This document shows, one piece after another, positions 3,254 to 36,002 of a stretch of 64,000 nucleotides of DNA (positions within the stretch are counted from its first letter, which is position 1; each line of letters begins with the position of its first letter). Source of the DNA: Pseudomonadota bacterium (GTDB taxonomy: Bacteria > Pseudomonadota > Gammaproteobacteria > Burkholderiales > Rhodocyclaceae); assembly GCA_018240785.1 (NCBI GenBank), contig JAFEFC010000039.1, positions 1 to 64,000 on the forward strand. Reading direction: 5' to 3'. A program made the translations under genes and the position numbers. The notes under the pieces were generated by a model. The model worked only from the letters and a program-made list of their open reading frames with translations, did not search any database and had not been told where the DNA came from.

Positions 3254-5906
3254 CGTAGTCCTCCTCCTCGTCAGGATCGTCGGCGTAACCCTGCATCTGC
3301 TGGAGCCAGACCTTGTTCACGACGACATTGATGGTCGTCGAATAGTCCCCGTAGGGAAAACTGACGCCGAAGGCGGCGATCGGTCCCGTCACGGCCTCGC
3401 CCTTGGGCTCCAGGCTGTGAATCATGAGGAGCGGCTTGTTCCGGACCATACGGTAATGCGTGTCGGATACCGCTCCTGAGCCATCTTCGCCGCCAGCCAG
3501 CGTCCTGGCCTCATTGCGTTGTGCGTCGCTGAGCCCGAGCTTCTCGTCGCCACGCGAGGCAACCCTGTCCTTGTTCAGGCGCCACGAAGTGCCGTTCGGC
3601 TGATCCTTCCCGACGACGCGCACCTGATTCCTCAGGGTGAACGGGTTTTCACCGCCGGAGCCACCCGAAGGGGAAATCAGCAGAACATCGGCCAGCGGGC
3701 GCTTCGTCGCAATCCGTTCGAGATAGCTGACCACGTCCGACTTCTGTCCGGCAAAGGTCGAATGGCATTCGAACCGGGTGAGGAAGTCGTCGATCACCTC
3801 GACGGGCACGTCCCTGAAGATGACGCCCTTTTCGGTGGACTCCTCCGGTCGCCCGCCGAATCCTTTTCGCCAGTGATCGGCGATCAGCACAAGGTTCCTG
3901 GCATTCACGCCAGGGTCGGTGGAGACAATGTAGCTCTCCCGCAATCGCCCACTGAAACTCTGCTCGACCGTGACCTCCTGGCCGGATCGCATCTTGTTCG
4001 CCGCCGTGATCAGCAGGCTGTCCGGATGCGAGCGGACGTACAGGCCAAAATCCTTCGGGCTAAGGCGATCGCGCCGCATGCGCTTGACCTGCTGTACAAG
4101 CTCTTCGGCGGCATCGGCGATGTGGGAGTACCAGTTGATCGAATCGCGCGAGAGATGGACGCGGCAGAGGTCCTCGAAGCCCGGCCGGTAACCGAACCAG
4201 CGGCCCATCTGCATGAGGGTGTCGTACATCTTCGTGTTGCGGTACATGTAGCTGACGGTCAACCCCTCGATGGTCAGGCCTCGGGAGAGGCTCAGACCAC
4301 CGACCGCGACCGCGGTCAACCCGACTCCTTCCTTCGCATAGCGGGCGTAGTCGAGCACCTCGTCACTCTTGCTGTTGATGACATAGAGGTGGAGGTGCTC
4401 GAAGACGCCGCTGAGGGCAGCCTTCACCTCCGCCCAGGTAAACCCAGCATCGGCGTACTCAGCATCGAAGGCGTGCTTCAGGCCCTGCATGTACGCGTTT
4501 CTTGCGGAAACCTCTTCCGGCATCGCGTAGTTGGCGAGAACCGCTTCCCTGATCTTCTTCTCCCTGAGACTCAGGAAGTCACGCACGGCCTTCTGAACGG
4601 GCACGAAGCGCGACACATTGACCATCATGGAGCAATGCTTGCCGGTCTGCCCACGCAGGTTCCGGATGGCGCGGGCGACGATGAATTCGTCGAGTGCGCG
4701 ATAGAGGCTGGGGGGCAACTCGGGGACAGGATCGTCACGCTTGTGGGCGTACGGGATGAGATTCTCGCAATCGTCGATCGACCTCACGATCGATTGACTG
4801 GTCGCCTCGTCGAGGAACACTTTCTCGGCACCGAAGTACGTCGTTGGCGCGTCCAGGCAATAGATGAAGTCGCGCGGGAACAGCTCCTCACGCACATCAT
4901 CGCCATAGGCGTCGGGGTTGATGAAGATGTTGGCGAACGGTGTCGCCGTATAGCCGACATAGCACGATTTCGCGAACAGCCCGAGGATGCGCCGGATCAT
5001 CGCATTCGTTCGGGTGGGATCCAGATCCTCCTTGTTCGTGTTGATCGACGCGTTGTCGGCCTCGTCGTCAATCAGCAGCATCGGCACGTCGGAAATCCGG
5101 CCATCGCCCTCGGCGTTCAGCTCCTTCAGCCACTTGTGAAGAGCCGTGAGCGTCGTGACGTTCTTCTTGATGACCAGAATGATCGGCTTGCTGAAGTCGT
5201 TGATCTTCCAGCCGCTCTTTTCCGCCGTGTTCTTGTTGAAGTCCTCGTTGATGTTGGTGAGGGTGGCCGGATGCGGATAGCCCGGCGCGAGGCCGACACC
5301 GATGTTGCGACGATCCTCGGGATCGCTGGACCGGCCGATGAAGGCCTCATCGATGCGCTGCTGCGTCTGCTTGCGCAGATTGTTGTGAATGCCGGCGACG
5401 ACGATGATGAACTTGTAGCCGGCGTCGGCGGCGCGTGCTATCAGGCCGGTGTAGTTGGCCGTCTTGCCCGACTGCACATGACCGATGACAAGGCCGCGAC
5501 GGTTCCAGGTTGTGCCCTCGCTCAACGGATCCTGCAGGTGGCCGAGAATGCGGGTCGTCACATCGCTCAGCGACTGGACCATCTGCGGTGGCCAACCTTC
5601 CTTGAGAAGAAAGTTTCCATAGGATTCCGCATACGTCCAGGCGACGTCCTCACGCTTGTGGACCCACTGATCGTCATGCTTCGCAGTGACATCCACCAGC
5701 GAAACACCGGCCCCCATGCGCGTGTCGACCGAGATCATCGCCTCGGTGACGATATTGCGGAGATCACCCGTATAGCCGAAGATCGCGGCGATCTGTCTCG
5801 CCTTCTCCTCCACCTGCTCGCGCGTCGGCGTCTCGGCCATGTTGGCAAGGCCTGAGATGAGCGCGTTGGCAATGTTTCGTTCTTCCGTGATGACTGTGAG
5901 GCTCAT
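3246..5906 (-). CDS. Z1 domain protein, superfamily II helicase-like ATPase
   Basis: The 886-residue protein carries the Z1 domain (PF10593). Visible motifs are a Walker A GHVQSGKTA at 142-150, a Walker B LLIDDEAD near 277, a TATPFAN motif III-like segment near 320, and QMGRWFGYR near 567, which resembles helicase motif VI. Z1 proteins are predicted superfamily II helicases found with MutL/MORC-type ATPases in restriction-like operons, so it probably translocates on or remodels DNA for the DUF4420 nuclease. The start overlaps the stop of the GHKL ATPase gene by 4 bp. No frameshift or missing motif is seen. Confidence 0.9.
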   Translation of the reverse strand: MSLTVITEERNIANALISGLANMAETPTREQVEEKARQIAAIFGYTGDLRNIVTEAMISVDTRMGAGVSLVDVTAKHDDQWVHKREDVAWTYAESYGNFLLKEGWPPQMVQSLSDVTTRILGHLQDPLSEGTTWNRRGLVIGHVQSGKTANYTGLIARAADAGYKFIIVVAGIHNNLRKQTQQRIDEAFIGRSSDPEDRRNIGVGLAPGYPHPATLTNINEDFNKNTAEKSGWKINDFSKPIILVIKKNVTTLTALHKWLKELNAEGDGRISDVPMLLIDDEADNASINTNKEDLDPTRTNAMIRRILGLFAKSCYVGYTATPFANIFINPDAYGDDVREELFPRDFIYCLDAPTTYFGAEKVFLDEATSQSIVRSIDDCENLIPYAHKRDDPVPELPPSLYRALDEFIVARAIRNLRGQTGKHCSMMVNVSRFVPVQKAVRDFLSLREKKIREAVLANYAMPEEVSARNAYMQGLKHAFDAEYADAGFTWAEVKAALSGVFEHLHLYVINSKSDEVLDYARYAKEGVGLTAVAVGGLSLSRGLTIEGLTVSYMYRNTKMYDTLMQMGRWFGYRPGFEDLCRVHLSRDSINWYSHIADAAEELVQQVKRMRRDRLSPKDFGLYVRSHPDSLLITAANKMRSGQEVTVEQSFSGRLRESYIVSTDPGVNARNLVLIADHWRKGFGGRPEESTEKGVIFRDVPVEVIDDFLTRFECHSTFAGQKSDVVSYLERIATKRPLADVLLISPSGGSGGENPFTLRNQVRVVGKDQPNGTSWRLNKDRVASRGDEKLGLSDAQRNEARTLAGGEDGSGAVSDTHYRMVRNKPLLMIHSLEPKGEAVTGPIAAFGVSFPYGDYSTTINVVVNKVWLQQMQGYADDPDEEEDYDA

Positions 5907-7381
5907 GCAAAGGTCTCGCTGATGAATTTTTCGGCCAGTTCGATCTGGCCATCGAAAAGGTGCGTCGAGCGCACGATCTGGAGAAAGGCATTCGGATCGC
6001 CCGGCCCGTCGCCGTAGAGCACCTTCCTGAGACTCTTCAGGCGCTCCAGAGTCTGGCTTTCATCCACCGCCCTCTGGTTGATCTCGCGTGGATGGGTCGA
6101 GTAATCCGAATAGATCATCTCCACCGGTAGGGAGGCGGCAATCGAATCCAGCAGGACACGAAGCAGATCCACATCCTCGGACGAAAGTCTTGTGCCCAGG
6201 GATGCGATGAGCGGGTGCTGCTCGTTGATTGCGAAACGGATGCCGCCGTGATCGGCGTAGCGCTCCCAGAACGGGGCTTGGCTCTCCTGAAAGAGCTTCT
6301 GCCCGCGCCCCCTATGCACCGTCACGCTGCGGGCAGTGATCCTGTTGAGGATCTGACGCAGCCGCTCCCGCACCCCATGCGGCGGGCGGGCACGCGATTT
6401 CTTGATGTCGATGGTCCAGGCTTCGTCCAGACTGTTGGGAAAGTCGATCTGTACCCGCGCCAACTTGGTGGCCTCACCCTTCGGCACGAGTCTGAACCAG
6501 TCGCCCCAGGCCATCAGGCGGCCATTTCGATAGACGTAGCCCCCCTGATTGGAGATGAAGTCACTGCGATCCTGGTAGTAGTCGTACTCGGACGCGGACA
6601 GACGACTGTGGTGTGGAAGCACGTAAGGCTGCAGGCGCACCTCGGCCTCGCCGATGCGGACGATCTCCTCCGGAAGCACCTGGGTGGCAGGATTCTTTCT
6701 GCAGAAGGGATCGAATGCCGTAATCGGACGACCATTGACGGTGAGAGAAATCCTGGCATGTCCCTTGATCTCACCCGAGAGAAACCGGTGGAAGACAAGT
6801 GACAGATGTCTGCCTACTGCCTCAAGCTTCTCATTGACGATCTCGTCTCGACGATCCCCGGCCTCGTCCTCCATCAATCGGTCGAGCTCTCGCCAGATAA
6901 CGGCCGTGCCCCGGGCGCCGAGCCGTTCGACATAAGGCAACCCATGGATGTCCGCATCGTCCAGGATGGAAAGAATCCAGTCGTCGGCAGCATCGATGCG
7001 ATCCAGATTCCATTCGGCTCCGCAGACAGTTCCATCGCGTGTGCTCACAACGGTCAGCGAGCGACATTGGGAAAACGAGGCTGTCTTCAGGCCAAGGCCG
7101 AAGCGCCCAAGATCCTTCGGCGACCGATGCTGCCTGGGGTTGCCGGTCCCATGACGCATCGCATCGAGCAGCTCGTCTTCCGTCATCCCCCTGCCGTTGT
7201 CGAGGATGACCATCACAGGATGCTCACCGGACACATCGCAGATGATGTCGATGGTGTCCGCGCCAGCGGAAATGCTGTTGTCGATCAGATCGGCAATCGC
7301 AGTTTCGAGCGAGTACCCAAGGTCCCGCATCGATTCGGAAAGGCAGGCCGCGCTCGGCGGATGGCTGCGATCACGAGCCAT
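5903..7381 (-). CDS. GHKL ATPase, MutL/MORC-like, first gene of defence operon
   Basis: The 492-residue protein has a complete GHKL (HSP90/MutL) ATP-binding fold. The N-box with Glu27, Asp31 and Asn35 lies in ETAIADLIDNS, the G1 box DNGRGM at 61-66, and the G2 box GRFGLGLKTASF at 92-103. Prokaryotic MORC-like ATPases of this kind are known next to Z1, DUF4420, AIPR, Vsr and cytosine methylase genes. They are thought to act as ATP-driven clamps that couple recognition to cleavage. It starts the leftward operon, and its promoter must lie in the 147-bp gap shared with the divergent vsr. The C-terminal half has no motif I can name. Confidence 0.85.
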   Translation of the reverse strand: MARDRSHPPSAACLSESMRDLGYSLETAIADLIDNSISAGADTIDIICDVSGEHPVMVILDNGRGMTEDELLDAMRHGTGNPRQHRSPKDLGRFGLGLKTASFSQCRSLTVVSTRDGTVCGAEWNLDRIDAADDWILSILDDADIHGLPYVERLGARGTAVIWRELDRLMEDEAGDRRDEIVNEKLEAVGRHLSLVFHRFLSGEIKGHARISLTVNGRPITAFDPFCRKNPATQVLPEEIVRIGEAEVRLQPYVLPHHSRLSASEYDYYQDRSDFISNQGGYVYRNGRLMAWGDWFRLVPKGEATKLARVQIDFPNSLDEAWTIDIKKSRARPPHGVRERLRQILNRITARSVTVHRGRGQKLFQESQAPFWERYADHGGIRFAINEQHPLIASLGTRLSSEDVDLLRVLLDSIAASLPVEMIYSDYSTHPREINQRAVDESQTLERLKSLRKVLYGDGPGDPNAFLQIVRSTHLFDGQIELAEKFISETFA

Positions 7382-7528
7382 CGGCTTCCCCTTGCGTCTT
7401 CCTGTGAGTCAAGCGCATGGTAGGCTCCAGATTTCTGCTTCGATCGTCGCCTTCATCCGTTCGCATTGCCAGACAGACGCGCGGAGCTGCCATTTCTGCA
7501 GACATTCAGGTGGAAGATATTCACGACC
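7382..7528. promoter_or_regulatory. Divergent control region between GHKL ATPase and vsr
   Basis: This 147-bp gap separates two divergent starts, so promoters for both the leftward four-gene operon and vsr must lie here or just inside vsr. No convincing -35/-10 pair or perfect palindrome could be picked by eye. A purine-rich GGTGGAAG about 12 bases before the vsr ATG is a plausible ribosome binding site. Confidence 0.5.
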
Positions 7529-7975
7529 ATGCGCGTTCCGACCACTCCGCAGCGCAGCCGCATGATGTCGAGTATTCGCGGAAAGAACACCCGGCCGGAA
7601 CGGATACTTCGCTCCCTTCTTTTCGCCAGGGGTTTTCGATATCGACTTCATGTGCGGGGGCTGCCCGGCTCCCCCGACCTTGTGTTCCCGAAGCGCAGAG
7701 CAGTGGTGTTCGTCCATGGCTGCTTCTGGCACCGACATGAAGGCTGCCGCTACACAACCACTCCCAGGACCAATGAAGATTTCTGGCGGCAGAAATTCCA
7801 GGGAAATGTCGCTCGCGACAGGCGCCATGCGGAGATGCTCCATGCCCTCGGCTGGCGCGTGGCGGTCGTCTGGGAGTGCGCCTTGAAGCACTCGGTCGAG
7901 GAGACTGCGCAAGCGGTTGAGGAGTGGCTGCATGGCGATGAGGATGTCCTGGTGATTGGTCAGAGCATTGACTAG
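7529..7975 (+). CDS. vsr: Very short patch repair (Vsr) endonuclease
   Basis: The 148-residue protein matches Vsr. It opens with RSRMMSSIRGKNTRPE, continues with LPGSPDLVFPKRRAVVFVHG, whose Asp aligns with the catalytic Asp, and has the HGCFWHRHEGC zinc/catalytic segment with paired His and Cys. Vsr nicks T:G mismatches made by deamination of 5-methylcytosine. In defence islands, Vsr-like nucleases may also be recruited as restriction enzymes. The frame stays open upstream, but the ATG at 7529 has a ribosome binding site and gives the normal family length. Its 3' end overlaps the convergent methyltransferase by 4 bp, linking the pair physically. Confidence 0.9.
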   Translation: MRVPTTPQRSRMMSSIRGKNTRPERILRSLLFARGFRYRLHVRGLPGSPDLVFPKRRAVVFVHGCFWHRHEGCRYTTTPRTNEDFWRQKFQGNVARDRRHAEMLHALGWRVAVVWECALKHSVEETAQAVEEWLHGDEDVLVIGQSID

Positions 7976-9591
7976 CCCGCTTCGGCAAGCACAGTAAGCT
8001 GTTCTGGCAGGTTTCGCGGCACGCTTCCCGCCGGCCTCTTCTGTACGGCATCACCAGCCTGCCTCCGCCTCCTCCTGCTCATCTCGTTCAGAAGGCTACG
8101 AACGATCTTGGCCAGTTTGTAGGCAAGCAACGGAGGCACCGCATTGCCGACCTGGGTGTACTGCTCCGTTCGGTTGCCAGCGAAGACGTAGTTGTCGGGA
8201 AACGTCTGGAGCCGCGCCGCTTCCCTGACCGTGAGACTTCTGCATTGGGAGGGGTCGTAGTGGATGTAGTAGTGCCCGTCCTTGGCAATGTGAGCCACCA
8301 CCGTGGTGGACGGTTCGTTCCTGCACTGCACGCGGAACCGATCCTTGAACGGGATCGCTTCGGATTCCCGATCGACATGCACATTGATGTGATCGGGAAG
8401 CAGCTTGGGAGGAAACACATCCAGCCGTGGGCAATACCCCCATAAATGAGCGAAGCTGGCTGAGAAAAGATAGCGAGCAAGATCGGATGCCATGTGCGCG
8501 CGCGCTTCATGCTGACAGACACCACCCAGGCTTCGGTCGTGAAGCCATTGCTGAAGCTCGGTCGGCTTCTTCGGCCTTCTGTAGCCTCGTGAAATGAAGG
8601 CGCCACCGGTCGTGGTGCTGGTTGCCGCAGCGGCAAAGGCACGCATTGTCCCGATCATGACGGACTCGTTTTCTGTTCTCCATCCCTTGACGTAAGAGGG
8701 GGCAGCCTGAACAGCCTTGCGCCATGCCTCCACTGAATCGCCACGCGACAGCTTGCTGCGGATTCGGGGAAGATCGTCAATGGCCTGTTTGACCGTGACA
8801 GGCCTTGCTACTGGTGCCAGCAACTGGTGTTGAGGCATGTCCAGCCCCTTCCTCACTCCGAGCAGAATCACGCGATGCCTGCTTTGCGGGATCCCATGGC
8901 GCTCAGAATGGATAAGGTAGTCGGTGGGTTCCAGCGAACTGCCGTCGCCCTTCTTGGTAAAGGATCGGATCTCATATTCGAGCCCATCGGTCGGCATCGA
9001 AAGATCCGCAATGATCTTCTCGAACATCGGGTCGCCGGAGTGCTTCGAGGAAAGCAGACCCTTGACATTCTCCATCACGAAGATGGTGGGCTTGTGCACC
9101 TGGATGATTCTCAGGTACTCCCTGTAGAGGAAGTGTTTTTCATCCTTGTGAAAGTCCTTGTCGTTGGCGCGTCTGGAGCGCCCCGCCAGCGAATACGCCT
9201 GGCAGGGCGGGCCGCCGATCAGCACCCAGGTTTCCTGCCCCTTCAGTGCAGCACGAATTTCCCTGTCGATACTGGCTTCGTCGGACTTGCCAAGCTCCAG
9301 GCACCTCGCCTCGGTGGCAGCATGCTCGAAGGCGCTGGCCACGGCAGGGATCCTGCGGAATGCGGCCTCATCGATCTCGCCCCGTATGTAGCTGTAGTAG
9401 TGCTTGACGTCCTTGGTGCCACGCAAACGCCTGAACACTGCCCTGAGCGTCAGCGTGCGATGTGCGACAGCATCCTTCTCAATGGAAAGGGCAATCTCGA
9501 AGAATGGCTGCCGCTTGTGGCCCTGCAGGGAAGCAAATCCTTCCCCGAGCCCTCCTGGGCCAGCAAAAAGATCAATTATGGGAACTGGCAC
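7972..9591 (-). CDS. DNA (cytosine-5) methyltransferase
   Basis: The 539-residue protein has ordered C5-methyltransferase motifs: motif I DLFAGPGG near residue 7, motif IV GGPPCQAYS with the catalytic Cys near 129, motif VI ENVKG near 173, motif VIII QSRHRVILLG, a target-recognition stretch, and motifs IX-X (SLTVREAARLQTFP ... QVGNAVPP). It methylates cytosine at an unknown site and presumably protects self DNA from the neighbouring nucleases. The frame is open about 77 codons further upstream. I chose the GTG at 9591 because GGGGAGG lies 9 bases before it and motif I follows directly. A long insertion between motifs I and IV may be specific to this family. Confidence 0.9.
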   Translation of the reverse strand: MPVPIIDLFAGPGGLGEGFASLQGHKRQPFFEIALSIEKDAVAHRTLTLRAVFRRLRGTKDVKHYYSYIRGEIDEAAFRRIPAVASAFEHAATEARCLELGKSDEASIDREIRAALKGQETWVLIGGPPCQAYSLAGRSRRANDKDFHKDEKHFLYREYLRIIQVHKPTIFVMENVKGLLSSKHSGDPMFEKIIADLSMPTDGLEYEIRSFTKKGDGSSLEPTDYLIHSERHGIPQSRHRVILLGVRKGLDMPQHQLLAPVARPVTVKQAIDDLPRIRSKLSRGDSVEAWRKAVQAAPSYVKGWRTENESVMIGTMRAFAAAATSTTTGGAFISRGYRRPKKPTELQQWLHDRSLGGVCQHEARAHMASDLARYLFSASFAHLWGYCPRLDVFPPKLLPDHINVHVDRESEAIPFKDRFRVQCRNEPSTTVVAHIAKDGHYYIHYDPSQCRSLTVREAARLQTFPDNYVFAGNRTEQYTQVGNAVPPLLAYKLAKIVRSLLNEMSRRRRRQAGDAVQKRPAGSVPRNLPEQLTVLAEAG

Positions 9592-9652
9592 GCCAGCAAT
9601 CCTCCCCTTGGTTCCTTCCCGAATGTGATTCGGTTGCCGATTTGGTGCACGC

Positions 9653-9853
9653 TCACTCTGCCTCCGGCTTCTTCTTGCTGATGCTTTCGGCGATCCACCG
9701 ATCCAGCTCCGAGCGGCGAAAGCGCCAGGTTCCCCCAAGCTTGAACGCCGGAATCTCTCCTTTCTGGGCAAGGCGATAAACCGTCCGTTTTCCGGCTTTG
9801 AGGTAGGCCGCGACCTCCTCAAGTGTGAGGATCTCGCTCTCGACTTCAGTCAT
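9653..9853 (-). CDS. Small excisionase-type helix-turn-helix DNA-binding protein
   Basis: The 66-residue protein has the compact winged-helix of the excisionase/MerR-like family (TIGR01764 type): LTLEEVAAYLKAGKRTVYRL, then IPAFKLGGTWRFRRSELD. It starts at an ATG at 9853. It lies 61 bp upstream of the methyltransferase in the same direction and probably forms an operon with it, as a controller-type regulator of the restriction genes. An alternative role as excisionase for the cargo block cannot be excluded. The basic C-terminus (SISKKKPEAE) is compatible with DNA binding. Confidence 0.8.
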   Translation of the reverse strand: MTEVESEILTLEEVAAYLKAGKRTVYRLAQKGEIPAFKLGGTWRFRRSELDRWIAESISKKKPEAE

Positions 9854-10077
9854 CCGGAAACCATCCGATCTGGCCTTTCGTAGATTTCGGTTGCCAAGTT
9901 TAGCCAATTCTACCAAGCCGCGGTAGGCGCTGGCCAACTCCGCAATGCGGGGAGCATTGCACGGTTGATCGCCAGCTCGACCTGGGAATCCGGTCATGCC
10001 GTAGTTCCCATTCCCTGCGGCGCAAAGCGAGAGCACGCCACAGCATCTGGCCATCCGCTTCAACGGGGAATGGCACG
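9854..10077. promoter_or_regulatory. Divergent region between HTH gene and conjugation operon
   Basis: The 224-bp gap must contain the promoter of the leftward HTH-methyltransferase pair and possibly the junction between cargo and the ICE backbone. Three CCAA elements begin at 9894, 9904 and 9913, about one helical turn apart. These could be operator repeats for the small HTH protein. Nothing else is recognisable. Confidence 0.35.
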
Positions 10078-10443
10078 ATGGGACAGACCAACCGCCGCAC
10101 ATCCGCATGGCCTGCGCTTGCCGTGGCGTTGGCTGTGTCGTTCTCGGCGCTGCAGCCTGCCGTCGCTGCCGACAGCCTCGCCTTGGAGCGTGAGCAGCTC
10201 GCCGCGCTCACCCGCCAACTCGACCTGATCGATCGCCTCGCCGAGCACGCCGCCAATACCGCTCCGCAGGAGCGCGCCCGCTACCACTTCGACCACGCCC
10301 GACTGCGTGCCGACCTGAAGCGCGTTCGCGCCGGCCTGCAGGACTACCTCGTGCCCCAGCGCGCCCAGCCGCGCGATCCCGTCCCGCTGGTCGGCGATTA
10401 CGTCCGCCGCGACCGCGCCGACGACGAGGAGCCGTCGCCATGA
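10078..10443 (+). CDS. RAQPRD family ICE protein (TIGR01690)
   Basis: The 121-residue protein has a cleavable signal peptide (hydrophobic segment ending in AVAADS near residue 31) and the family signature RAQPRDP near residue 97, preceded by the ARYHFDHARL segment. RAQPRD proteins are periplasmic, of unknown biochemical role, and occur only at the head of this type of ICE mating operon. Its stop overlaps the next start (ATGA), so translation is coupled. It is the first backbone gene right of the defence insertion. Confidence 0.95.
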   Translation: MGQTNRRTSAWPALAVALAVSFSALQPAVAADSLALEREQLAALTRQLDLIDRLAEHAANTAPQERARYHFDHARLRADLKRVRAGLQDYLVPQRAQPRDPVPLVGDYVRRDRADDEEPSP

Positions 10444-18573: not shown

Positions 18574-18706
18574 CCATCAATCCTCAAGGCTACGGCGCGG
18601 CTGGTCCGCGTTGATCGCAACCCGTTCGCATCGCATCCGTTGCCGCGAACAACCACTGCATTCGCGGTGGTGGATGCCCGCTCGTCACCTGTTCCATCCC
18701 CATCGT

Positions 18707-18732
18707 CCCCAGGAGGGTTTGCCCTCCAGGGG
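18707..18732 (+). promoter_or_regulatory. Stable hairpin upstream of radC
   Basis: A CCCC-A-GGAGGG arm (18707-18717), a TTTG loop and a CCCTCC-A-GGGG arm (18722-18732) form a strong stem with one A-A mismatch. It lies 36 bp before the radC ATG. No T-run follows, so it is not a classical terminator. It could shape the radC leader or protect the 3' end of the upstream transcript. Confidence 0.5.
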
Positions 18733-18768
18733 CAGGCGCCCTCCGATCTCATCCATTGGAGGTTCGCC

Positions 18769-19263
18769 ATGTCTCTCGTCATCGCCGACTCCCGCCCGGA
18801 GTCGCTCACCCTGATCGCCGCCCAGCACGAAGACTGGATCATCCGGCAGGCCATCACCCTGCTGGAGAACCGCGTGTTCAAGGCCGGTCCGGCGCTGGGC
18901 AGTCCCGCCGCCGTGCGCGACTACCTGCGCCTGAAACTGGTCGCGGAGCCGAACGAAATCTTCGCCGTCGTGTTTCTCGACAACCAGCACCAGGTGCTCG
19001 CCTACGAGCCGCTGTTCAAGGGCACGGTCGACCAGACTTCGGTGTATCCGAGGGTGGTGGTCCAGCGTGCGCTGGCGCTCAACGCTTCGGCGCTGATCCT
19101 GGCGCATCAGCATCCCTCGGGGAACACCGAGCCCTCGGCCGCTGATCGTGTGATCACCGAGCGGCTGAAGAGCGCCCTGGCCACCGTCGATGTCCGGGTG
19201 CTGGATCACTTCATCGTCGGCAAGGGCAGCCCCTACTCGTTCGCCGAAGCCGGCTTGTTGTAG
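18769..19263 (+). CDS. radC: RadC family JAB-domain protein
   Basis: The 164-residue protein has the RadC JAB/MPN metal-binding motif: [19 protein letters not shown], the H-x-H-P-S-G ... D pattern, with an upstream Glu in [10 protein letters not shown]. RadC homologues are very common in ICEs and genomic islands. They are not DNA-repair proteins as once thought, and their substrate is unknown. The ATG at 18769 is preceded by GGAGG. It stands alone between a hairpin and a terminator-like stem, as a separate transcription unit between the two mating blocks. Confidence 0.92.
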
Positions 19264-19268
19264 TCCGC

Positions 19269-19300
19269 AGGCGCCCCTTCCGGGGGCGCCTTGCGTCTTG
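19269..19300 (+). terminator. Terminator-like hairpin after radC
   Basis: A 9-bp perfect stem (19269-19277 with 19283-19291, AGGCGCCCC/GGGGCGCCT) with a 5-base loop begins 5 bases after the radC stop. It is followed by TTGCGTCTTG, which is only moderately T-rich. It is a plausible intrinsic terminator that isolates the following restriction cassette. Confidence 0.6.
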
Positions 19301-19394
19301 CCCCTATCCACACGTTCGCGATGCGCTCTGATGGTCGCGACTTTCGGAAGCTTGGAAGGCTTGTGGGATAGGCGGCTGAACCGGCCTTTACCTG

Positions 19395-19423
19395 TTGAGA
19401 AGCACACCTTTACATGGCAGAAT
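19395..19423 (+). promoter_or_regulatory. Possible sigma-70 promoter for the HTH-methyltransferase-nuclease cassette
   Basis: TTGAGA at 19395-19400 and CAGAAT at 19418-19423 are separated by 17 bases and lie about 30 bp before the ATG at 19454, in an AT-richer patch. The -10 match is weak. Confidence 0.35.
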
Positions 19424-19453
19424 GTGCATATTTTCTAGTTGCCAGCAACGCGA

Positions 19454-19930
19454 ATGTCTGCCGTCACCGCCATCCAGTACACTCAGGACCAGATGCGCAC
19501 GCTAACCGGCGTGTCCGTCGAAACGGTGCGGCATTGGCGCAAGACCGTGCCCTACTTGGCGTCCAAGACCGGGAAGGCTGCCCGATTCACCTTCGCGGAT
19601 CTCCTAGGCTTGGCCGTTACCAATGAGTTGGTCAGCTCGTTGGGAGTGCACATCGCCACCGTCAGCGTCGGCGTTGACGCGCTCTTTCGGTTGCTGGGCA
19701 CGAGTAGCGCATTGGCGCTGAATGGGTCCGTGGCGTTCGTGACGGCCACTTCGGCGACCCTGTGCGATATCGGCCCCGAGGGGATTGGACCGGCGCCGAC
19801 GCAACCGACTCTCGTCATCCCGCTCGATCCGTTGATCATGCGGCTTCAGCAGCACATGCTGCCGATCGTCCCGACGCCGAGCCAGGCAGCGTTGCCGTTT
19901 CCACCCGAAGCTATCCGGAGTAGGGCGTGA
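19454..19930 (+). CDS. MerR-like helix-turn-helix protein, cassette regulator or specificity factor
   Basis: The 158-residue protein opens with a MerR-type winged-helix: YTQDQMRTLTGVSVETVRHWRK, then AARFTFADLLGLAVTNELV, in which the second part resembles the wing and following helix. The rest (about 65-158) has a helical region and a Pro-rich tail with no family I recognise. The frame has an upstream TTG at 19439, but the ATG at 19454 is preferred. Its TGA overlaps the GTG start of the methyltransferase gene, so it is co-expressed with it. It may be a controller protein for the restriction-modification genes. Confidence 0.7.
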   Translation: MSAVTAIQYTQDQMRTLTGVSVETVRHWRKTVPYLASKTGKAARFTFADLLGLAVTNELVSSLGVHIATVSVGVDALFRLLGTSSALALNGSVAFVTATSATLCDIGPEGIGPAPTQPTLVIPLDPLIMRLQQHMLPIVPTPSQAALPFPPEAIRSRA

Positions 19931-22890
19931 ACACTGCCACGCTGGAACAGGTGCTCGCCGCAACCGGCTACCTGCCGGACGGGCAACCCGCGCCCGGTCT
20001 TCGGTTGGGGGCCGAGGCGCAGTCCTCGCGCCACGGCCGCGTTTTTGTTCCGGACGCATTGTGGCGCAGCGCGTCGTCGTTGACCGTCTACTTCAAGTTT
20101 GAGCAAAGCGCGCCTGCAGACGATCTGGTCAGCCAGTGGCGACGAGAGGTCTGGAACGAGGGGTTCGCGCCGTTGCTGTGGGTGATCTCGCCGCAGCGTA
20201 TCGACCTGTACAACGGTTTCGGCACACCCGCGAAAGAAGGCGATGCCCAGAGACATTTGATTCGGCGTTTCGAGAACATCGAAGGTTCGCTTCATGAACT
20301 GGACGAGTTGGCCGGCCGACTGGCGATCGAGACGGGCCAATTCTGGGCCCAGGTGCCGGCCATCGATCGCAAGACCAGCGTCGATCAGAAGCTCCTGTCT
20401 GACCTTGGATGTCTCGAACGCGATTTGGTCGCAGGCAATCTCGCGCGCGATGCGGCGCAGGCCTTGATTGGGCGCGTGATCTTCACCCAGTACCTGATTG
20501 ACCGCGAGATCGTCAGTGCGGCGCGGTTGAAGCGGGTATGCGGCCGCACGGCGTTGCCGGCGATCCTGCGCGACCGGCCAGCGACCAGCAAGCTGTTCGC
20601 ATGGCTGGCCCAGACCTTCAACGGCGATATGTTTCCGCCCTCGTCGGTGAAAACGACACCAGCAGCTCACCATTTGACGCGGGTTGCGGAGTTCCTGGAG
20701 GCTGTCGATCCTGAAAGCGGGCAACTCAGCTTCTTCCCGTACCAGTTCGACGTGATTCCGGTCGAGCTCATCAGCTCGATCTACGAGCAGTTTGCACATG
20801 CTGAGCCGCAGACTGGAGGAAAGCGCACAGAAGCGTTGCGAAACGGCGTGCACTACACGCGACTGTCCGTCGTCTCGCTGGTCCTCGATGAGGTCATGGA
20901 TGGTCTATCTGGACGGGAGTCGGTGCTGGATTTGACGTGCGGCTCCGGTGTCTTCCTGGTCGAAGCGCTGCGGCGCTTGGTTCATCTTCGCTCGCAAGGT
21001 CAGCCGCCCACGAGGGAGCTGATCCGCTCGACGCTCTACGGGCAGGTGTATGGCGTAGACATTAGCGAAGCCGCGATTCGCGTCGCTGCGTTCAGCCTGT
21101 ACCTGGCTGCGCTTGAGCTGGACCCTGACCCGCAACCACCGCAGTCCCTGAAGTTCCAGCCATTGATCGGCAGGACATTGCTCGTCGGTGACGCTCGTAC
21201 TGTCGAACGTGATGGAGATGGCAAGGCCGTGCTGGCGACGCCGACAGGGCTGAAGCAGTTCGACCTTATCGTGGGCAATCCCCCTTGGAGCTTTAGGGGG
21301 CAGACAGGAACCGAAGCGCGGCGCAAGACCAGGGTTGCGGGCGTACCTGCGCAACCGCGCGGTGAAGGCTTGGATTTCGTGTTGCGAGCGGCGGAGTTCT
21401 CACATGAGAAGACCCGTTTCGGCATCATTCTTAGCGCGATGCCGTTCTTCAGCCGCAGCGGCACCGGCATGGCAGCAGCTCAGCATGTGATGCGAGCCGT
21501 GGCTCCGATCACCTTGGTAAATCTGTCCAATTTGTGCAGTTGGCTCTTCGCGACAGCGGCCATGCCCGCAGTGGTTCTCTTTGCCCGTCATCGACCGAAG
21601 CAGCGAACGGATCAGGTCACGGTCGTTCAGATCCCGTGGACGCCCAGCGGTGCAAGGACTCATTCGTTCGAGGTGGCGCCGAGTGACGTCATCACTTTGA
21701 CACTCGACGAAATCCAAGAACAGCCGTTGAAGCTCAAGGCAGCAGCCGTTGGCCGGCGCCGTGACCTCCTATTGCTGGATGACTTGACTTCGGCCCACAG
21801 AAATCTGGGCGAGCAACTCTCATTACTCGACACTACCTTCCAGGTTGGATTGATTCGCGGGGCCCCAGAGAATCAGACGCGCGATGCTCGCCCGCTAAAA
21901 GGATTGGATGTACTGCAAGTCAAAGACATGCAGCACTTCAACATTCCCGATGATTTGCCGACTTTCAGCCAATCGAAGGCACAATGGCCACGATCGCGGG
22001 AGATATATCAAGCCCCGCTTCTCATCGTGAAGGAAATGCTTCTGGGGAGTCCACGCGTCTTGGCGGCCGTCTCCGAGCGGGATCTCGTCTTCACGAACTC
22101 ATACTTCGCAGTGTCTATTCCGAGAGGGCACACGCGGACGGCACATTTGCTTGCCACCGTGTTGAGTTCTGCTTTTGCGACATGGTTCTTCTATCTGACC
22201 GCTGCAGAGTTTGGAATCTACAAGAGGAAGCTGCTGGCTCGCGACCTCAGCTTCCTACCGGTGCCTAATTTCACGAGCGCAGTGAAATCTGAGGCTGGCC
22301 AGCGCCTGCTGCAGATTGAGAAGAATCTGCGCGCCAACGGCACCGACGAGAGGGGATGGGCTGAACTGGACGAAGCTGTCTTCGATCTGTACGAACTGAA
22401 CGATGCCGACCGAACTGTCATTCGAGACGGCCTCCTTCGCGCCGGGTGGCAATGGGAAACCGGCCGCGAATCATCCGTGGAGCCATCGGACAGTCGTACT
22501 GAGGTCACGGCGTATGCCAAGACGTTCCTGTCCGTTATCGAGGATTGGCTTTCCGTTCGCAATAAGCGGCACATGCGCGCCGAAGTGCTCGACTTGCCAA
22601 GCAGTTCGGCCTTGCGCGTCGTGCGCTTTGTCTTGGAAGAAGGGCCGGGTAATGCGAGCGTGAGCGTCGTGGCACCACAAGGCGAATTGGGTGAAGTACT
22701 GGCACGTATCGGCAGGCGCCTGAAAGTCAAGATTGCGACCGCGCTCAGTGCAGAGCGGGAATTGCGAGTACACGGACGCAACGAAGTCGTGATCATCAAG
22801 CCAGCAGCGCGGCGCTACTGGATGGGCATAGCGGCACTGGAAGATGCCGATGCAGTGGTCGCGGAGAGCTTTTCAGGGGGCAAAGTTTGA
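19927..22890 (+). CDS. Large N6-adenine DNA methyltransferase (Eco57I/PglX-like)
   Basis: The 987-residue protein has a gamma-type adenine methyltransferase core: GVHYT near 307, motif I DLTCGSGVFLVEA near 336, and the catalytic NPPW near 452. After the core comes a TaqI/Eco57I-type target-recognition region (about 620-780). The N-terminal 300 residues and the last 180 have no clear nuclease motif. It probably methylates adenine for self-recognition, with the separate downstream protein as nuclease. It starts at GTG 19927 inside the preceding stop codon and ends overlapping the next start. Base composition is visibly lower in GC than the flanking mating genes, a sign of separate origin. Confidence 0.85.
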   Translation: MNTATLEQVLAATGYLPDGQPAPGLRLGAEAQSSRHGRVFVPDALWRSASSLTVYFKFEQSAPADDLVSQWRREVWNEGFAPLLWVISPQRIDLYNGFGTPAKEGDAQRHLIRRFENIEGSLHELDELAGRLAIETGQFWAQVPAIDRKTSVDQKLLSDLGCLERDLVAGNLARDAAQALIGRVIFTQYLIDREIVSAARLKRVCGRTALPAILRDRPATSKLFAWLAQTFNGDMFPPSSVKTTPAAHHLTRVAEFLEAVDPESGQLSFFPYQFDVIPVELISSIYEQFAHAEPQTGGKRTEALRNGVHYTRLSVVSLVLDEVMDGLSGRESVLDLTCGSGVFLVEALRRLVHLRSQGQPPTRELIRSTLYGQVYGVDISEAAIRVAAFSLYLAALELDPDPQPPQSLKFQPLIGRTLLVGDARTVERDGDGKAVLATPTGLKQFDLIVGNPPWSFRGQTGTEARRKTRVAGVPAQPRGEGLDFVLRAAEFSHEKTRFGIILSAMPFFSRSGTGMAAAQHVMRAVAPITLVNLSNLCSWLFATAAMPAVVLFARHRPKQRTDQVTVVQIPWTPSGARTHSFEVAPSDVITLTLDEIQEQPLKLKAAAVGRRRDLLLLDDLTSAHRNLGEQLSLLDTTFQVGLIRGAPENQTRDARPLKGLDVLQVKDMQHFNIPDDLPTFSQSKAQWPRSREIYQAPLLIVKEMLLGSPRVLAAVSERDLVFTNSYFAVSIPRGHTRTAHLLATVLSSAFATWFFYLTAAEFGIYKRKLLARDLSFLPVPNFTSAVKSEAGQRLLQIEKNLRANGTDERGWAELDEAVFDLYELNDADRTVIRDGLLRAGWQWETGRESSVEPSDSRTEVTAYAKTFLSVIEDWLSVRNKRHMRAEVLDLPSSSALRVVRFVLEEGPGNASVSVVAPQGELGEVLARIGRRLKVKIATALSAERELRVHGRNEVVIIKPAARRYWMGIAALEDADAVVAESFSGGKV

Positions 22891-23558
22891 GGATCCCCTA
22901 TGAGGCACCTCCTGCACTGGGCAGAGAGTTCATTGAACTTGAGCCCGAGGTTGTGGCGGTCATTCTGCTGACACTGGCCGCAGGTTGGCAGCGAGCATGC
23001 GCAGCCGAGGACGTGAATGCCAACGCTGGAGAGGTAATCATGACCGAGCGCCTGCGGGACGGGATGCGCATTGCGCTGAAGAACTCCCCGTGGAAGCAGA
23101 TCATGGTGCTGCCTGGCACGGAATCGCGATCCAAAAGCAACGTGATGCTGCCAGACGGACGTACCGACATCCCGCTGGCGTTCGTCGAAATTTTCTTGCG
23201 CACGCAGGAGCATGATCCGCACGCGATCATCGAATGCAAACGAATCGCCGGGTCGGACACTCACTTGTGTCGAGAGTACGTCGTCGAGGGCATGGATCGA
23301 TTCATCCAGGAGAAGTACGGCGAGAACCATGCTATCGGCTTCATGGTGGGGTACGTTCTTGCCGGCGCTCCTTCGGAATCCGCGGATGGCGTCAACGCTT
23401 ACTTGAGAAGAGTTTCGCGCTCGGTAGATCGCCTCGCCCCGAGCGACATCAGTGACGGGACTTGGCAGAGCCTACATGCACGCTCCAAGCCGTCGATGCC
23501 GATTCGCTTACAGCATGCGTTTCTTGGGTTCGCGGGCACCTCAGCGTCCCGCACCTGA
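22887..23558 (+). CDS. Putative PD-(D/E)XK nuclease of the methyltransferase cassette
   Basis: The 223-residue protein matches no family I can name, but a PD-(D/E)XK-like signature is visible: Asp94 in PDGRTDIPLAF, then Glu116-Cys-Lys118 in HAIIECKRIAG, about 22 residues later, as in restriction nucleases. The start is an unusual TTG at 22887 overlapping the methyltransferase TGA; an in-frame ATG at 23040 (residue 52) would still keep the motif. Translational coupling to a methyltransferase suggests it is the cutting partner. The nuclease function is inferred from the motif only. Confidence 0.6.
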   Translation: MRIPYEAPPALGREFIELEPEVVAVILLTLAAGWQRACAAEDVNANAGEVIMTERLRDGMRIALKNSPWKQIMVLPGTESRSKSNVMLPDGRTDIPLAFVEIFLRTQEHDPHAIIECKRIAGSDTHLCREYVVEGMDRFIQEKYGENHAIGFMVGYVLAGAPSESADGVNAYLRRVSRSVDRLAPSDISDGTWQSLHARSKPSMPIRLQHAFLGFAGTSASRT

Positions 23559-23609
23559 TCTCCGCCTCCGACAGGAGGCAATCACAACGCTCACAACGGC
23601 ATAGGGTAT

Positions 23610-23640
23610 GAAACCGGCAGGGGCCGGATGCGGTTTCTTT
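23610..23640 (+). terminator. Intrinsic terminator after the methyltransferase-nuclease cassette
   Basis: GAAACCG (23610-23616) pairs with CGGTTTC (23631-23637). The interior GGCAGGGGCC can extend the stem, and the hairpin runs into TTT. It lies 52 bp after the cassette's last stop and 62 bp before the next mating gene, so it delimits the insert. Confidence 0.65.
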
Positions 23641-23701: not shown

Positions 23702-24145
23702 ATGCCGGCCCCCGTCTTCAAGGCTTCGCCCCGGCTGCCGACCATCAGCATTGCGCCCGGACTGTGGGCAGTGCTGTTCATGTTTACCCAGACTGCAGCA
23801 GCCGACGTGCTCGTCGTCACCGACAGCCGTCATCCGGTGCAGGCTCCAGCCGGCGTGCGGATCATCGAGCTGGACCAGGCCACGCGCATCGAGGTCGAAC
23901 TCGCCGCGCACCTACCGGCCGACCCGCAACAGGCTGCAGCCCTGGTGCGGCAGCGGTTGCATGACGGCGGCGAGGCCCTTCAACGCCGCATCGGCCACGC
24001 CTACCAAGGTGTCGCGGATGCCTGGGGACTGGGCATCGCCAAGATTCCCGCCGTGGTGGTCGATCGACGCTACGTGGTCTACGGCGAGCCCGACGTGCCC
24101 CGCGCCGTCGCGCGCATCAACGCCTACCGGAGCACGCAGCCATGA
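23702..24145 (+). CDS. TIGR03757 family ICE protein (TrbC/TraW-like)
   Basis: The 147-residue protein has a hydrophobic N-terminal signal (about 17-34, ending TAAADV). The mature domain ends in KIPAVVVDRRYVVYGEPDV, the hallmark of TIGR03757, where a thioredoxin-like strand precedes the C-terminus. By analogy with F-type systems it is a periplasmic pilus-assembly factor. Its stop overlaps the TIGR03756 start. It opens the second mating block, directly after the restriction cassette. Confidence 0.9.
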   Translation: MPAPVFKASPRLPTISIAPGLWAVLFMFTQTAAADVLVVTDSRHPVQAPAGVRIIELDQATRIEVELAAHLPADPQQAAALVRQRLHDGGEALQRRIGHAYQGVADAWGLGIAKIPAVVVDRRYVVYGEPDVPRAVARINAYRSTQP

Positions 24146-33835: not shown

Positions 33836-35689
33836 CTAGGCGACTCCGACTCGCAGCGGGGTCCATTCGCTTTCCTTCACGGCTGTGCTCACTGCCATGA
33901 CGAGCTTGTCGAGATTGCCGGCCGTCACGCCCTCCAGTGCCGAACACCCCCGCAGCATCGAGCGCGGTTGCAGTAGTGCATGGTAGATCTGCCAAGGGTC
34001 CGCACCCCTGGTCAGCTTCAGGACGGACTGGATCAGCTCGTGCTTGAGTGGGTCGAGGTGCCAGTCCGGCACGCGCTGGCCGCGGTTGCCTACGTTCAAC
34101 GCCAGCAAGTTGCCCGCCTTGATCTCGTAGCTGATCCACCTGCGGGACTTGCCCGCCATCTTGGCAAACGCCGCGACGGGAAGGTTGTGCGGCGCTTCGA
34201 AGACATCGAACAGCTCCATCCTCTCGCGCTGAATGTCCGAAGGCACCAGCGGCGCGGCCGATCGAGGGGGCGGAACCGCCGGCAGCCGATGTGCGGCGGC
34301 AGAAACCAACGGCATGGCGTCACCCGGCTTCGTCACCAGCAGGATTGGCGAAGCGGCAACCGGCGTGGAGGGTGCGCTTGCGGTTTGCTCACTCGGGAAT
34401 GCGGGCACGCCTTCCAGATGCACGGTGAGCGGCATGCTGGCCGCCTCGACCTGGTTCTGCTCGAAGAGGTCGAGCCGATCGGCCCAGTCCTGCATCATGC
34501 GGCGACGCTGCTCCACGTACTCGGCATGGTTGTAGGTCGCGCTGACCTTGTTGGGATCGACATGCGAGAGCTGTGCATCCACCCAGACCTTCGGGTAGCC
34601 GATCTCGTTGAGCGCAGTGGACATCGTGCCGCGGATGCCGTGCCCCGTCAGGCGTTCCTGATAGCCCATGCGCTTGAGGGCACCATTGAGCGTGTTCTCG
34701 CTGATGCGCTTCTTCAAGTCGCTGTCGTGCCGGAACAGGTAGCGCTGGGCCGGCTTGAACTCATCGAGCAGGTGCCGGACGATCTCCATGGCCTGAATCG
34801 ACAGCGGCACGATGTAGGGCGGGATGTCCTTCGCCTGCTGCCGCTTCTTGCGCATATCCAACTGGAGTTGCTTCACGACGTCGGGCGGGATGATCCACAG
34901 CCCACGGTCCAGATCGAATTGATCCGGCATCGCCTGTCGCAGCTCGCCGGTTCGCACGCCGGTCAGCACCAATAGCCGCAGCCCGAGCTGGGTCTGCCGC
35001 CTGCCGCGATAGCTGCGCAGCCGCTGCAACAGCTTCGGCAGCTCGGCCATGCGCAGGAACGGGTTGTGGTTGACGGGCGGCAGCGGCAGCGCCACCACAT
35101 CGAGATCGGAGGCAGGGTTCTGCTCCAGGCCCGGCACGATCACCAGCGCGTAGCGGAACAGTTGGTTGAACCACGTCCTGACTTTCTCGGCGACGGAGAG
35201 CGCCCTGCGCTTCTCGATCTTGGCGATCACCTCCAAGAGGTCGGGACGCTTGATCTCATAGATCGACCGCTTGCCCAAGGCGGGTAGCACATCCTTGTCG
35301 AAGATGCGCGGAAGTATCGAGAGGGTCGTCTGCCGGCCTTCCTTGAGGCTGAGCCCGCGATGCTTGAGCCACTTGCGATACACCGCCTCGAAGGTGTTTT
35401 CGTCGGCGAGCCGGACAGCGGTGCGCTTCTGCTTGCGGTGAACGCGAGGATTGGTGCCTTTGGCCAGCAGGGCGCGCGCTTCGTCGCGCAGGCTGCGGGC
35501 CTCGCGAAGCGTCACCTCTGGGTAGGTGCCGAGCGACATCCGCTTCTGCTTGCCCGCCCAGTAGTAGCGGAAGTGCCAAGTCCGGCCCCCTGCAGCCGTG
35601 ACGGCCAGGGAGAGGCCATCCAAGTCAGGGAGGGTGTATGCCTTGCCAGTTGCCTTGGCCTGCCGAACGGCCAGGTCTGAGAGTGCCAT
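33836..35689 (-). CDS. int: P4-type tyrosine integrase of the ICE
   Basis: The 617-residue protein has the N-terminal DUF4102 arm-binding domain (MALSDLAVRQAKATGKAYTL onward), a core-binding domain, and a catalytic domain with Arg in LTGVRTGELR (about 244), His-x-x-Arg in GHGIRGTMS (about 350) and Tyr in the ATYNHAEY segment (about 387). It cuts and joins the tRNA-Gly att sites. About 220 residues follow the catalytic Tyr; the last part (IYHALLQPRSMLRG...) resembles no known domain, but such extended integrases occur in ICEclc-like elements. The ATG at 35689 is preferred over one six codons upstream. It reads inward, away from the tRNA. Confidence 0.95.
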   Translation of the reverse strand: MALSDLAVRQAKATGKAYTLPDLDGLSLAVTAAGGRTWHFRYYWAGKQKRMSLGTYPEVTLREARSLRDEARALLAKGTNPRVHRKQKRTAVRLADENTFEAVYRKWLKHRGLSLKEGRQTTLSILPRIFDKDVLPALGKRSIYEIKRPDLLEVIAKIEKRRALSVAEKVRTWFNQLFRYALVIVPGLEQNPASDLDVVALPLPPVNHNPFLRMAELPKLLQRLRSYRGRRQTQLGLRLLVLTGVRTGELRQAMPDQFDLDRGLWIIPPDVVKQLQLDMRKKRQQAKDIPPYIVPLSIQAMEIVRHLLDEFKPAQRYLFRHDSDLKKRISENTLNGALKRMGYQERLTGHGIRGTMSTALNEIGYPKVWVDAQLSHVDPNKVSATYNHAEYVEQRRRMMQDWADRLDLFEQNQVEAASMPLTVHLEGVPAFPSEQTASAPSTPVAASPILLVTKPGDAMPLVSAAAHRLPAVPPPRSAAPLVPSDIQRERMELFDVFEAPHNLPVAAFAKMAGKSRRWISYEIKAGNLLALNVGNRGQRVPDWHLDPLKHELIQSVLKLTRGADPWQIYHALLQPRSMLRGCSALEGVTAGNLDKLVMAVSTAVKESEWTPLRVGVA

Positions 35690-35895
35690 GCTCTTGCTCC
35701 TGAACATGAGTCAGGAACCAGATGCTGGTCACGTCGACCTCGCCCCTCCATCAACAATCCGGAATCAGCCGCGCCCGCAAAAATGGACTTGTTTGTGGAC
35801 TTAAAAGTCCCGGCTGTAGATGGATCGCAGTGGACCACGGCAGAACGTCAAAGAGAGGAAAAGTCCTTGTGTGGCAACGACTTGCAGACTCTCTT

Positions 35896-35927: not shown

Positions 35928-35945
35928 TGGAGCGGGTGAAGGGAA
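35928..35945 (-). other. ICE attachment site, 3' end of tRNA-Gly
   Basis: The last 18 bases of the tRNA gene, ending in CCCGCTCCA, resemble the 18-bp att core of ICEclc, which also ends in CCCGCTCCA and is likewise the 3' end of tRNA-Gly. The integrase gene begins 239 bp away. The exact core length is inferred from that comparison; the partner copy is outside the window. Confidence 0.65.
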
Positions 35946-36002
35946 TCGAACCCTCGTCATCAGCTTGGGAAGCTGAGGTAATAGCCATTATACGACACCC
36001 GC
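35928..36002 (-). tRNA. tRNA-Gly (anticodon CCC)
   Basis: On the minus strand a 75-base cloverleaf can be folded: acceptor stem GCGGGTG/CACCCGC, an anticodon arm TCAGC-TTCCCAA-GCTGA giving anticodon CCC, a T-arm GAGGG-TTCGATT-CCCTT, discriminator T and an encoded CCA at 35928-35930. The D-arm is GTAT-AATGGCTA-TTAC. It lies between the integrase and ptsI and remains intact, since the ICE is inserted at its 3' end. Confidence 0.93.

Follow-up and report, generated by a model that had tools for sequence, protein, structure and literature searches.

A three-gene cassette of a PAGI-2/clc-type ICE as a candidate split type IIG-like restriction-modification system

What kind of system is encoded by an HTH gene, a large adenine methyltransferase gene and a small nuclease-like gene that overlap one another within the backbone of a conjugative element, and which of the proteins would choose the DNA site and which would cut it? 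The question is raised by a stretch of 64,000 nucleotides (hereafter the window) from a bacterium of the Rhodocyclaceae (GenBank assembly GCA_018240785.1, contig JAFEFC010000039.1), in which the original prediction had seen a regulated restriction-modification or BREX-like defence unit. The first part of that description finds support, and the HTH gene, the methyltransferase gene and the nuclease-like gene are conserved as a unit. The BREX identity was rejected, the best PglX model reaching 33.7 bits against a cut-off of 400 and a search of the window's own genome (99.99% complete) finding no PglZ. The interpretation favoured here, with a probability of roughly 0.6, is that the cassette is a split type IIG-like restriction-modification system, with the two activities placed in two proteins and gene 3 docking on gene 2.

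The host element is a PAGI-2/clc-type ICE, with TIGR03744, 03745, 03746 and 03756 among its mating genes. All three cassette genes occupy the positions originally given for them (Table 1), with the expected overlaps of 4 bases per gene pair at the stop and start codons (GTGA and TTGA) and with GTG and TTG starts. The lower G+C content claimed for the cassette is likewise present, its 1-kb blocks having 58-64% against 66-70% in the adjoining conjugation genes, and insertion into the ICE backbone is borne out by five close sister ICEs without the insert, to which homology ends at 19263 and restarts at 23610. The cassette had also been placed between two terminator-like hairpins, and this part is not supported. 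Hairpins can be read by eye at 19270-19290 (after radC) and at 23564-23579 (after gene 3), neither with a T-tract, and a scan for terminators found 4 sites against 4.0 expected, all intragenic and none at the cassette ends.

The presence of the cassette varies among related elements. From 46 other places with TIGR03757 a sample of 20 was taken, including the three further copies in the window's genome, which has four in all. The cassette was present at one of these 20 places (L082), 16 had radC close to TIGR03757 and no match to the cassette, and at the other three (L080, L083, L086) both radC and the cassette went undetected. Its absence from most sister junctions, together with the sharp breakpoints, marks the cassette as optional cargo at a backbone junction, and the radC-TIGR03757 junction is a variable insertion site. 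The four TIGR03757-bearing ICE copies of the window's genome lie on contigs C9, C20, C29 and C32 of G000, and one alone carries the cassette.

Table 1. Positions in the window of the cassette, its flanks and the elements discussed in the text.
Feature	Position	Strand	Basis or remark
radC, left flank, ICE backbone	18640..19263	+	Pfam RadC 8.9e-43
Cargo insert between radC and TIGR03757	about 19264..23609		breakpoints against empty-site ICEs L078, L087, L089, L090, L092
Operator-like dyad 1, GTTG-N4-GCAC, 60 bases before ATG, overlaps -35 hexamer	19394..19405		weak here, 6/8 half-site bases
Sigma-70-like promoter: TTGAGA, 17, CAGAAT, TG before -10	19395..19423	+	observed 1, chance expectation 1.1
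Operator-like dyad 2, GTTGCCAGCAAC, 16 bases before ATG	19438..19449		same dyad pattern at -16 in 8/8 clade loci
Gene 1: MerR-like HTH protein, 158 aa, proposed autoregulator	19454..19930	+	Pfam MerR_1 5.8e-6, above cut-off
Gene 2: N6-adenine DNA methyltransferase, type IIG-like layout, 987 aa, GTG start	19927..22890	+	N6_Mtase 2e-13; PADLOC REase_MTase_IIG 1.4e-43; Foldseek
Gene 2 residues 1-140: N-terminal, nuclease-like in position, no conserved (D/E)xK	19927..20346	+	30-protein alignment
Motif I, DLTCGSG, residues 335-341	20929..20949	+	D-x-x-(C/A)-G-(S/A)-G in 30/30 proteins
Motif IV, NPPW, residues 451-454	21277..21288	+	NPPW 20, NPPF 9, NAPW 1 of 30
Presumed target recognition region, residues 601-800, analyst-chosen boundaries	21727..22326	+	least identical segment; swapped between sister cassettes
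Gene 3: proposed PD-(D/E)XK nuclease subunit, 223 aa, TTG start	22887..23558	+	E49, D94, E116, K118 invariant 30/30; AlphaFold2 mean pLDDT 79.8
E49 codon, start of predicted helix 49-65	23031..23033	+	model and alignment
D94 codon, just ahead of strand 95-99	23166..23168	+	model and alignment
E116-C117-K118 codons, within strand 113-121	23232..23240	+	model and alignment
TIGR03757 ICE protein, right flank, ICE backbone	23702..24145	+	9.8e-43, above cut-off

Gene 2 resembles the type IIG enzymes (BpuSI, DrdV; PADLOC PDLC03623 and PDLC03603) in its layout, in which an N-terminal nuclease-like region is followed by a helical connector, an N6-adenine methyltransferase and a recognition region. Its identification as an N6-adenine methyltransferase is upheld by the Pfam match and by the retention of motifs I and IV. 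The best Foldseek match is BpuSI (3s1s, 6.6e-16, 982 columns), for which there is no single rigid fit (TM 0.31-0.34, rmsd 15.4), and the next ranks are taken by CamA (target TM up to 0.68), M.BseCI, BrxX and DrdV, with the AlphaFold2 model of gene 2 itself being middling (pLDDT 67.1, pTM 0.59). A more distant type IIG likeness, to MmeI, is visible by sequence only. The non-rigid BpuSI match, the motifs and the variable region 601-800 together give gene 2 the methyltransferase domain order and downstream recognition region of a type IIG enzyme. Residues 601-800 are the least identical of five gene 2 segments in 37 of 67 pairs, and in 38 of the 67 gene 3 is more conserved than this region.

In type IIG enzymes both activities reside in one polypeptide. 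Here, by contrast, the nuclease-like residues are found in a separate gene, which follows the methyltransferase in the intact cases inspected, and the N-terminus of gene 2 has no conserved catalytic residues. Among 30 aligned proteins there is no conserved N-terminal triad: columns 43, 55 and 57 are variable, and within residues 1-150 conservation of at least 80% is reached at A44, W76, G79 and G137 only. A (D/E)xK does occur somewhere in residues 1-140 of nine of the 30, in differing places, the window protein having none; where the predicted strand order would place the ExK there is Y-F-K in the window and other residues elsewhere. In one clade three of nine members (L109, L110, L116) carry FDAK at the place of a possible ExK, and in L107 and L108 an IExK lies on a later strand-like stretch, so that loss of the N-terminal site need not hold for every clade. 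Judged from the alignment, the N-terminal region is nuclease-like but probably dead, and it may have descended from a nuclease domain.

Where, then, would the catalytic centre be? The D94 and E116-C-K118 residues of gene 3 are as the original prediction described them, and its impression of a PD-(D/E)XK-like signature in a protein of no recognised family agrees with Pfam, NCBIfam and PADLOC, which gave no credible match to gene 3. Ten residues (E49, T53, D94, E116, K118, Y131, F139, M153, H197 and H210) are invariant in 30 of 30 gene 3 proteins, among which identity reaches down to about 20%. The set of 30 gene pairs left out shortened or split members (L033, L101, L104, L106), incomplete ones (L019, L036, L041) and near-identical copies. 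In an alternative alignment (A3) D94 is conserved at at least 90% and is not invariant, L109 and L110 being misaligned by eye and carrying the D. The PD-(D/E)XK core has the order helix-strand-strand-helix-strand. The AlphaFold2 model of gene 3, the best of five with pLDDT from 60.5 to 79.8, predicts a helix from E49, a strand just after D94, a strand with E116-C-K118, a helix and a strand, which places the acidic residue, the D and the E-x-K (30/30) on successive core elements in the predicted order; pLDDT falls below 50 in the loop that immediately precedes D94 (78-91).

Whether the signature belongs to a nuclease was a matter for the structure search, which pointed neither for nor against: no Foldseek match to gene 3 was found at E<=0.001 in PDB or BFVD. 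Among the weak rows were BglI (rank 17, E 1.2, PDB) and an Mrr-domain protein (rank 13, E 0.66, BFVD). Nucleotidyltransferase folds (NF45/NF90, OAS1, cGAS, Pol beta) stood among the top PDB rows at E 0.27 or worse and were judged to be noise. A comparison of the gene 3 profile with PDB sequences and scans of members against Pfam and PADLOC gave nothing usable, the best PDDEXK sequence match being that of one of 26 members at E 0.16. With the invariant residues and the strand order on one side, yet no confirmation from Foldseek on the other, a nuclease is the best reading of gene 3 rather than a demonstrated activity. The TTG start is backed by conserved residues just after it in close relatives; across the 30 proteins the starts are ATG in 16, TTG in 8 and GTG in 6, the 4-base overlap with gene 2 is found in 15, and a C-terminal KP..R.W motif is present in 22 by a strict pattern.

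The expectation that the genes would be conserved together in other genomes proved correct, the methyltransferase lying directly upstream of gene 3 in 16 of 18 genomes with gene 3 and the pair being found in 21 of 22 plasmid regions. The 18 distinct genomes, the window's own included, come from gene-3-first searches of overlapping sets (5 of 398, 6 of 399, 3 of 369 and 9 of 318 genomes), and the two without an upstream methyltransferase are fragments: in G475 gene 3 stands at the contig end, with no methyltransferase match in its 7.7 kb, and G082 has an 80-codon remnant of gene 3. For L133 the methyltransferase assignment comes from a profile comparison (E 7e-5, probability 63%). At L133:1345-3286 (- strand) a 259 aa gene 3 relative (profile E 7.7e-8) directly follows a methyltransferase-like C-terminal part, a very distant pair hinting at a much wider gene 3 family. 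The reverse search, with PADLOC PDLC03623 at E<=1e-20, matched 5 of 299 genomes with gene 3 downstream in all five, in samples overlapping those above, four being already known and only G193 new. The distance matrices of gene 2 and gene 3 (30 pairs) correlate at r=0.98 (0 of 9999 permutations), a value that is largely shared ancestry, since r drops to 0.46 for pairs with methyltransferase identity below 50%.

Scanning 84,980 species genomes brought up 23 loci. Gene 3 is full-length at 18 of them; each of these has gene 2 sequence ahead of it, and gene 1 is present as well at 16, the two exceptions (L015, L019) having too little upstream sequence; the gene 2 match of L019 starts only at residue 599, with other sequence ahead of it. 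Fourteen adjoin TIGR03757 in a PAGI-2/clc-type ICE, and gene 3 is 99-100% identical among several loci across Thiobacillus, Stutzerimonas, Dyella, Thauera and Rhodanobacter. Matches to TIGR03757 and radC are absent from L019-L022. At five loci (L024-L028) only residues 144-222 of gene 3 are left, beside TIGR03757, a remnant left where other cargo entered. At L024:6489-8237 the other cargo precedes the remnant of about 80 codons and includes a fragment that by eye is like thymidylate synthase. Gene 2 is about 25% identical at L031:5094-12884 and L032:1632-9499, where the cassette lies, in either orientation, among genes that by eye resemble traG and trbB and belong to another family of conjugative elements.

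The unit also occurs on plasmids. Gene 2 was matched by 54 plasmid records, from which 22 regions were inspected (H3, H4, H1 (the record of H6), H7-H10, H12-H15, H17-H22, H29, H31-H33, H40), and in 21 of them a gene of 214-253 aa with the ExK signature follows the methyltransferase; the remaining one, L115, has a methyltransferase fragment, and no gene 3 was noted there. The methyltransferase is split in the plasmid relatives L101, L104 and L106 and shortened in L033, and the gene 3 of L104 has no clear E49 region. Some plasmid relatives (L097, L098, L116, L117) have SIR2, TIR, Shedu, VapC or PIN genes in their neighbourhood, a setting like that of defence islands. The insert had no near match in the E. 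coli genomes searched, and gene 3 had no match in the phages searched; IMG/VR yielded two loci, one with gene 2 and gene 3 side by side (L096) and one beginning with gene 3 at the contig end (L095). The three genes are under purifying selection, with dN/dS of 0.09-0.17 in two of four comparisons with computable dS (L018, and L029, where dS of 1.4-1.9 is near saturation).

Which of the two proteins holds the site choice is addressed by sister cassettes that have exchanged alleles. The cassettes of the window, L018 (with L082) and L124, compared at the DNA level in 200-base blocks, are mostly 89-99% identical. L018 departs from the window and L124 over 21254-21653 (82-90%) and over 21654-22453 (68-74%), the latter inside the recognition region, and the window departs from the other two in the gene 3 segment 23054-23253 (78-79%), in which L018 and L124 are 98% identical to each other. 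This two-allele segment corresponds to about residues 57-122 of gene 3, spanning D94 and the ExK. L018 and L124 have gene 3 sequences that are 97.7% identical and recognition regions that are 70% identical, whereas for the window and L124 the values are 89.6% and 93%. By the block identities, L124 has a recognition allele of the window type together with a gene 3 allele of the L018 type. Such exchanges would be harmful if gene 3 read its own site and free if it follows gene 2, which would place recognition in gene 2. The recognition alleles are still 70% identical and might read one site, so the swap is no proof that gene 3 lacks specificity.

These exchanges bear directly on the rival possibility of an ordinary two-enzyme type II system, in which gene 3 would be an independent endonuclease recognising the site of gene 2 by itself. 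Linked separate genes for a methyltransferase and a nuclease-like protein are indeed present, with the latter assigned from its motif and predicted topology only, a controller-like gene stands upstream, and the divergent segment 23054-23253 of gene 3 could hold specificity. However, the occurrence of gene 3 and recognition alleles in differing combinations would be dangerous if a match were required, unless both alleles read one site, gene 3 has only about 220 residues, and gene 2 has a type IIG-like layout, all of which makes this explanation an unlikely one.

How would the cassette be controlled? The MerR-like nature of gene 1 is confirmed by its above-cut-off Pfam match (Table 1). Upstream of it a GTTG-N4-YAAC dyad is fixed at position -16 in 8 of 8 clade loci (7 distinct sequences) despite much otherwise differing upstream sequence. 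The pattern itself is not particularly rare: it occurs at 2 places in the window, and its 4 strand matches, where 1.41 were expected, are reached by 9 of 100 shuffles and so go only slightly beyond chance. Its support is the fixed position. At -60/-61, the position of dyad 1, a site with at least 6 of 8 half-site bases is found in 7 of 8 clade loci, and it is weaker evidence, as sites scoring 6-7 occur elsewhere upstream in 4 of 8 loci (window, L018, L082, L020). The promoter-like site sits between dyads 1 and 2; such a site is no rarer than chance, so its support too is positional only.

Head genes vary more widely than this clade would suggest. Ten others were scanned, giving three MerR_1 matches (two above cut-off), one HTH_11 match above cut-off, four weak matches below cut-off (two Xre-like, HTH_3 and HTH_26, and two ribbon-helix-helix-like) and two genes with no match; the head genes of two plasmid relatives carry an XRE family annotation. 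Where a head gene can be recognised, it encodes a DNA-binding protein, and several classes are represented. Palindromes upstream of seven more distant head genes were compared with 300 shuffles each: those of L031, L030 and L107 were reached by 0, 2 and 1 shuffles and that of L039 by 16, and those of L102, L099 and L100 were ordinary (38, 51 and 79). With head genes that vary in class and have palindromes, the regulator and its dyad may switch jointly, as for an autoregulated controller. In having a small DNA-binding protein and operator-like dyads at the promoter, the cassette resembles C-protein systems such as PvuII, as outlined in PMC3695507, but its head gene is MerR-like and not Xre-like, and all three genes, the methyltransferase included, run in the same direction and presumably form a single operon.

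Other known systems share parts of this plan. In type IIB and type I enzymes the nuclease and the methyltransferase share one recognition unit. The methyltransferases of such enzymes (BsaXI, EcoR124II) are similar in sequence to gene 2, and their shared recognition unit resembles what is proposed here for gene 2 and gene 3, although the cassette has neither a separate S subunit nor a translocase and its recognition region is presumed to lie inside gene 2. The PglX/BrxX protein of BREX has its methyltransferase fold in common with gene 2. With MADS the cassette shares the order of an HTH gene and then an N6 methyltransferase gene, with weak mad1 and mad2 matches; MADS identity was rejected, as the MAD2 equivalog reaches 13.9 bits against a cut-off of 720 and there are three genes only. 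A methylation-linked, non-classical defence (BREX-, MADS- or Pgl-like), in which gene 3 would cut or nick on a further trigger or act suicidally upon loss of methylation, could draw on the BrxX/PglX-like fold of gene 2, on the weak mad2 similarity and on the several plasmid relatives near SIR2, TIR, Shedu or toxin-antitoxin genes, a proximity noted with no background control. It is improbable when set against the lack of further BREX or MADS genes between radC and TIGR03757, the search of the genome that found no PglZ and the PglX and MAD2 models falling far under their cut-offs. That gene 2 is instead an orphan methyltransferase serving ICE regulation or escape from host restriction, with gene 3 as its accessory or specificity factor and not a nuclease, would suit the lack of a significant fold or family match for gene 3, but is very improbable given E49, D94 and E-x-K among ten invariant residues in predicted PD-(D/E)XK core order and given the gene 2/gene 3 unit outside PAGI-2/clc-type ICE, on plasmids and elsewhere.

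In the split type IIG-like system favoured here, gene 2 would bind its DNA site via the C-terminal recognition region and methylate adenine, keeping the one-piece type IIG body plan with a probably inactive N-terminal nuclease-like region. Gene 3 would supply the catalytic PD-(D/E)XK centre, probably with no site choice of its own, and, docked on gene 2, would cut the DNA recognised by gene 2 when it is unmethylated. Autoregulation by gene 1 would take place at the dyads around the promoter. With the methyltransferase translated before the nuclease, cutting would begin with a delay once the ICE has reached a new cell. In the window cassette the nuclease has a weak TTG start that is coupled to the stop of the methyltransferase gene, which fits such a delay, although this start is not general in the family. 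For PvuII, PMC3695507 sets out a delay of restriction upon arrival in a new cell, and by analogy the cassette may work likewise. The cassette would guard its host against phages and competing elements, and it may help to stabilise the ICE.

The ICE of the window carries a further defence system, of Mza type, at 216-9822, with a RAQPRD gene as its neighbour. For PAGI-2-like islands, PMC12629846 describes a GI-Hotspot 8 that is flanked by traD and RAQPRD and contains Mza among others; the main text of that paper does not contain the word radC, and the titles and abstract beginnings listed in literature searches gave no mention of a radC-TIGR03757 cargo site. This junction looks like a second cargo site of the ICE. 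The Mza operon is headed by a protein with a mad1 match (9653-10108, - strand, 1.3e-9). A tyrosine integrase gene (33836-35707, - strand) lies next to tRNA-Gly(CCC) (35928-36002, - strand), and the region is likely to be the ICE end and attachment site.

What does this mean for the wider family? A broader proposal, put forward tentatively and at somewhat less than even odds, is that of a two-protein class derived from type IIG, with a dead nuclease-like scaffold in the methyltransferase and a PD-(D/E)XK protein of about 210-255 residues guided by the recognition region. New in this system would be the nuclease family and the guidance model; the titles and abstract beginnings listed in literature searches included no title on the HTH-methyltransferase-gene 3 trio, and REBASE, outside that search, may name members. 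PDLC03623 matches all 11 methyltransferases of alignment A2 at <=1e-10 (best 6.7e-181), and no PADLOC model matched gene 3. As this is a methyltransferase family with gene 3 alongside, the 'type IIG' label of PDLC03623 probably hides a second subunit. If so, a one-piece type IIG family of PADLOC would be a two-component system with an unrecognised nuclease, and its loci would be counted and cloned differently. The radC-TIGR03757 junction would be a second cargo site beside the known defence hotspot of the PAGI-2-like ICE family. If the guided-nuclease reading is true, new specificities would arise by exchange of one gene 2 segment with the nuclease unchanged, and the cassette would be a natural example of a nuclease directed to its sites by a recognition region that can be exchanged.
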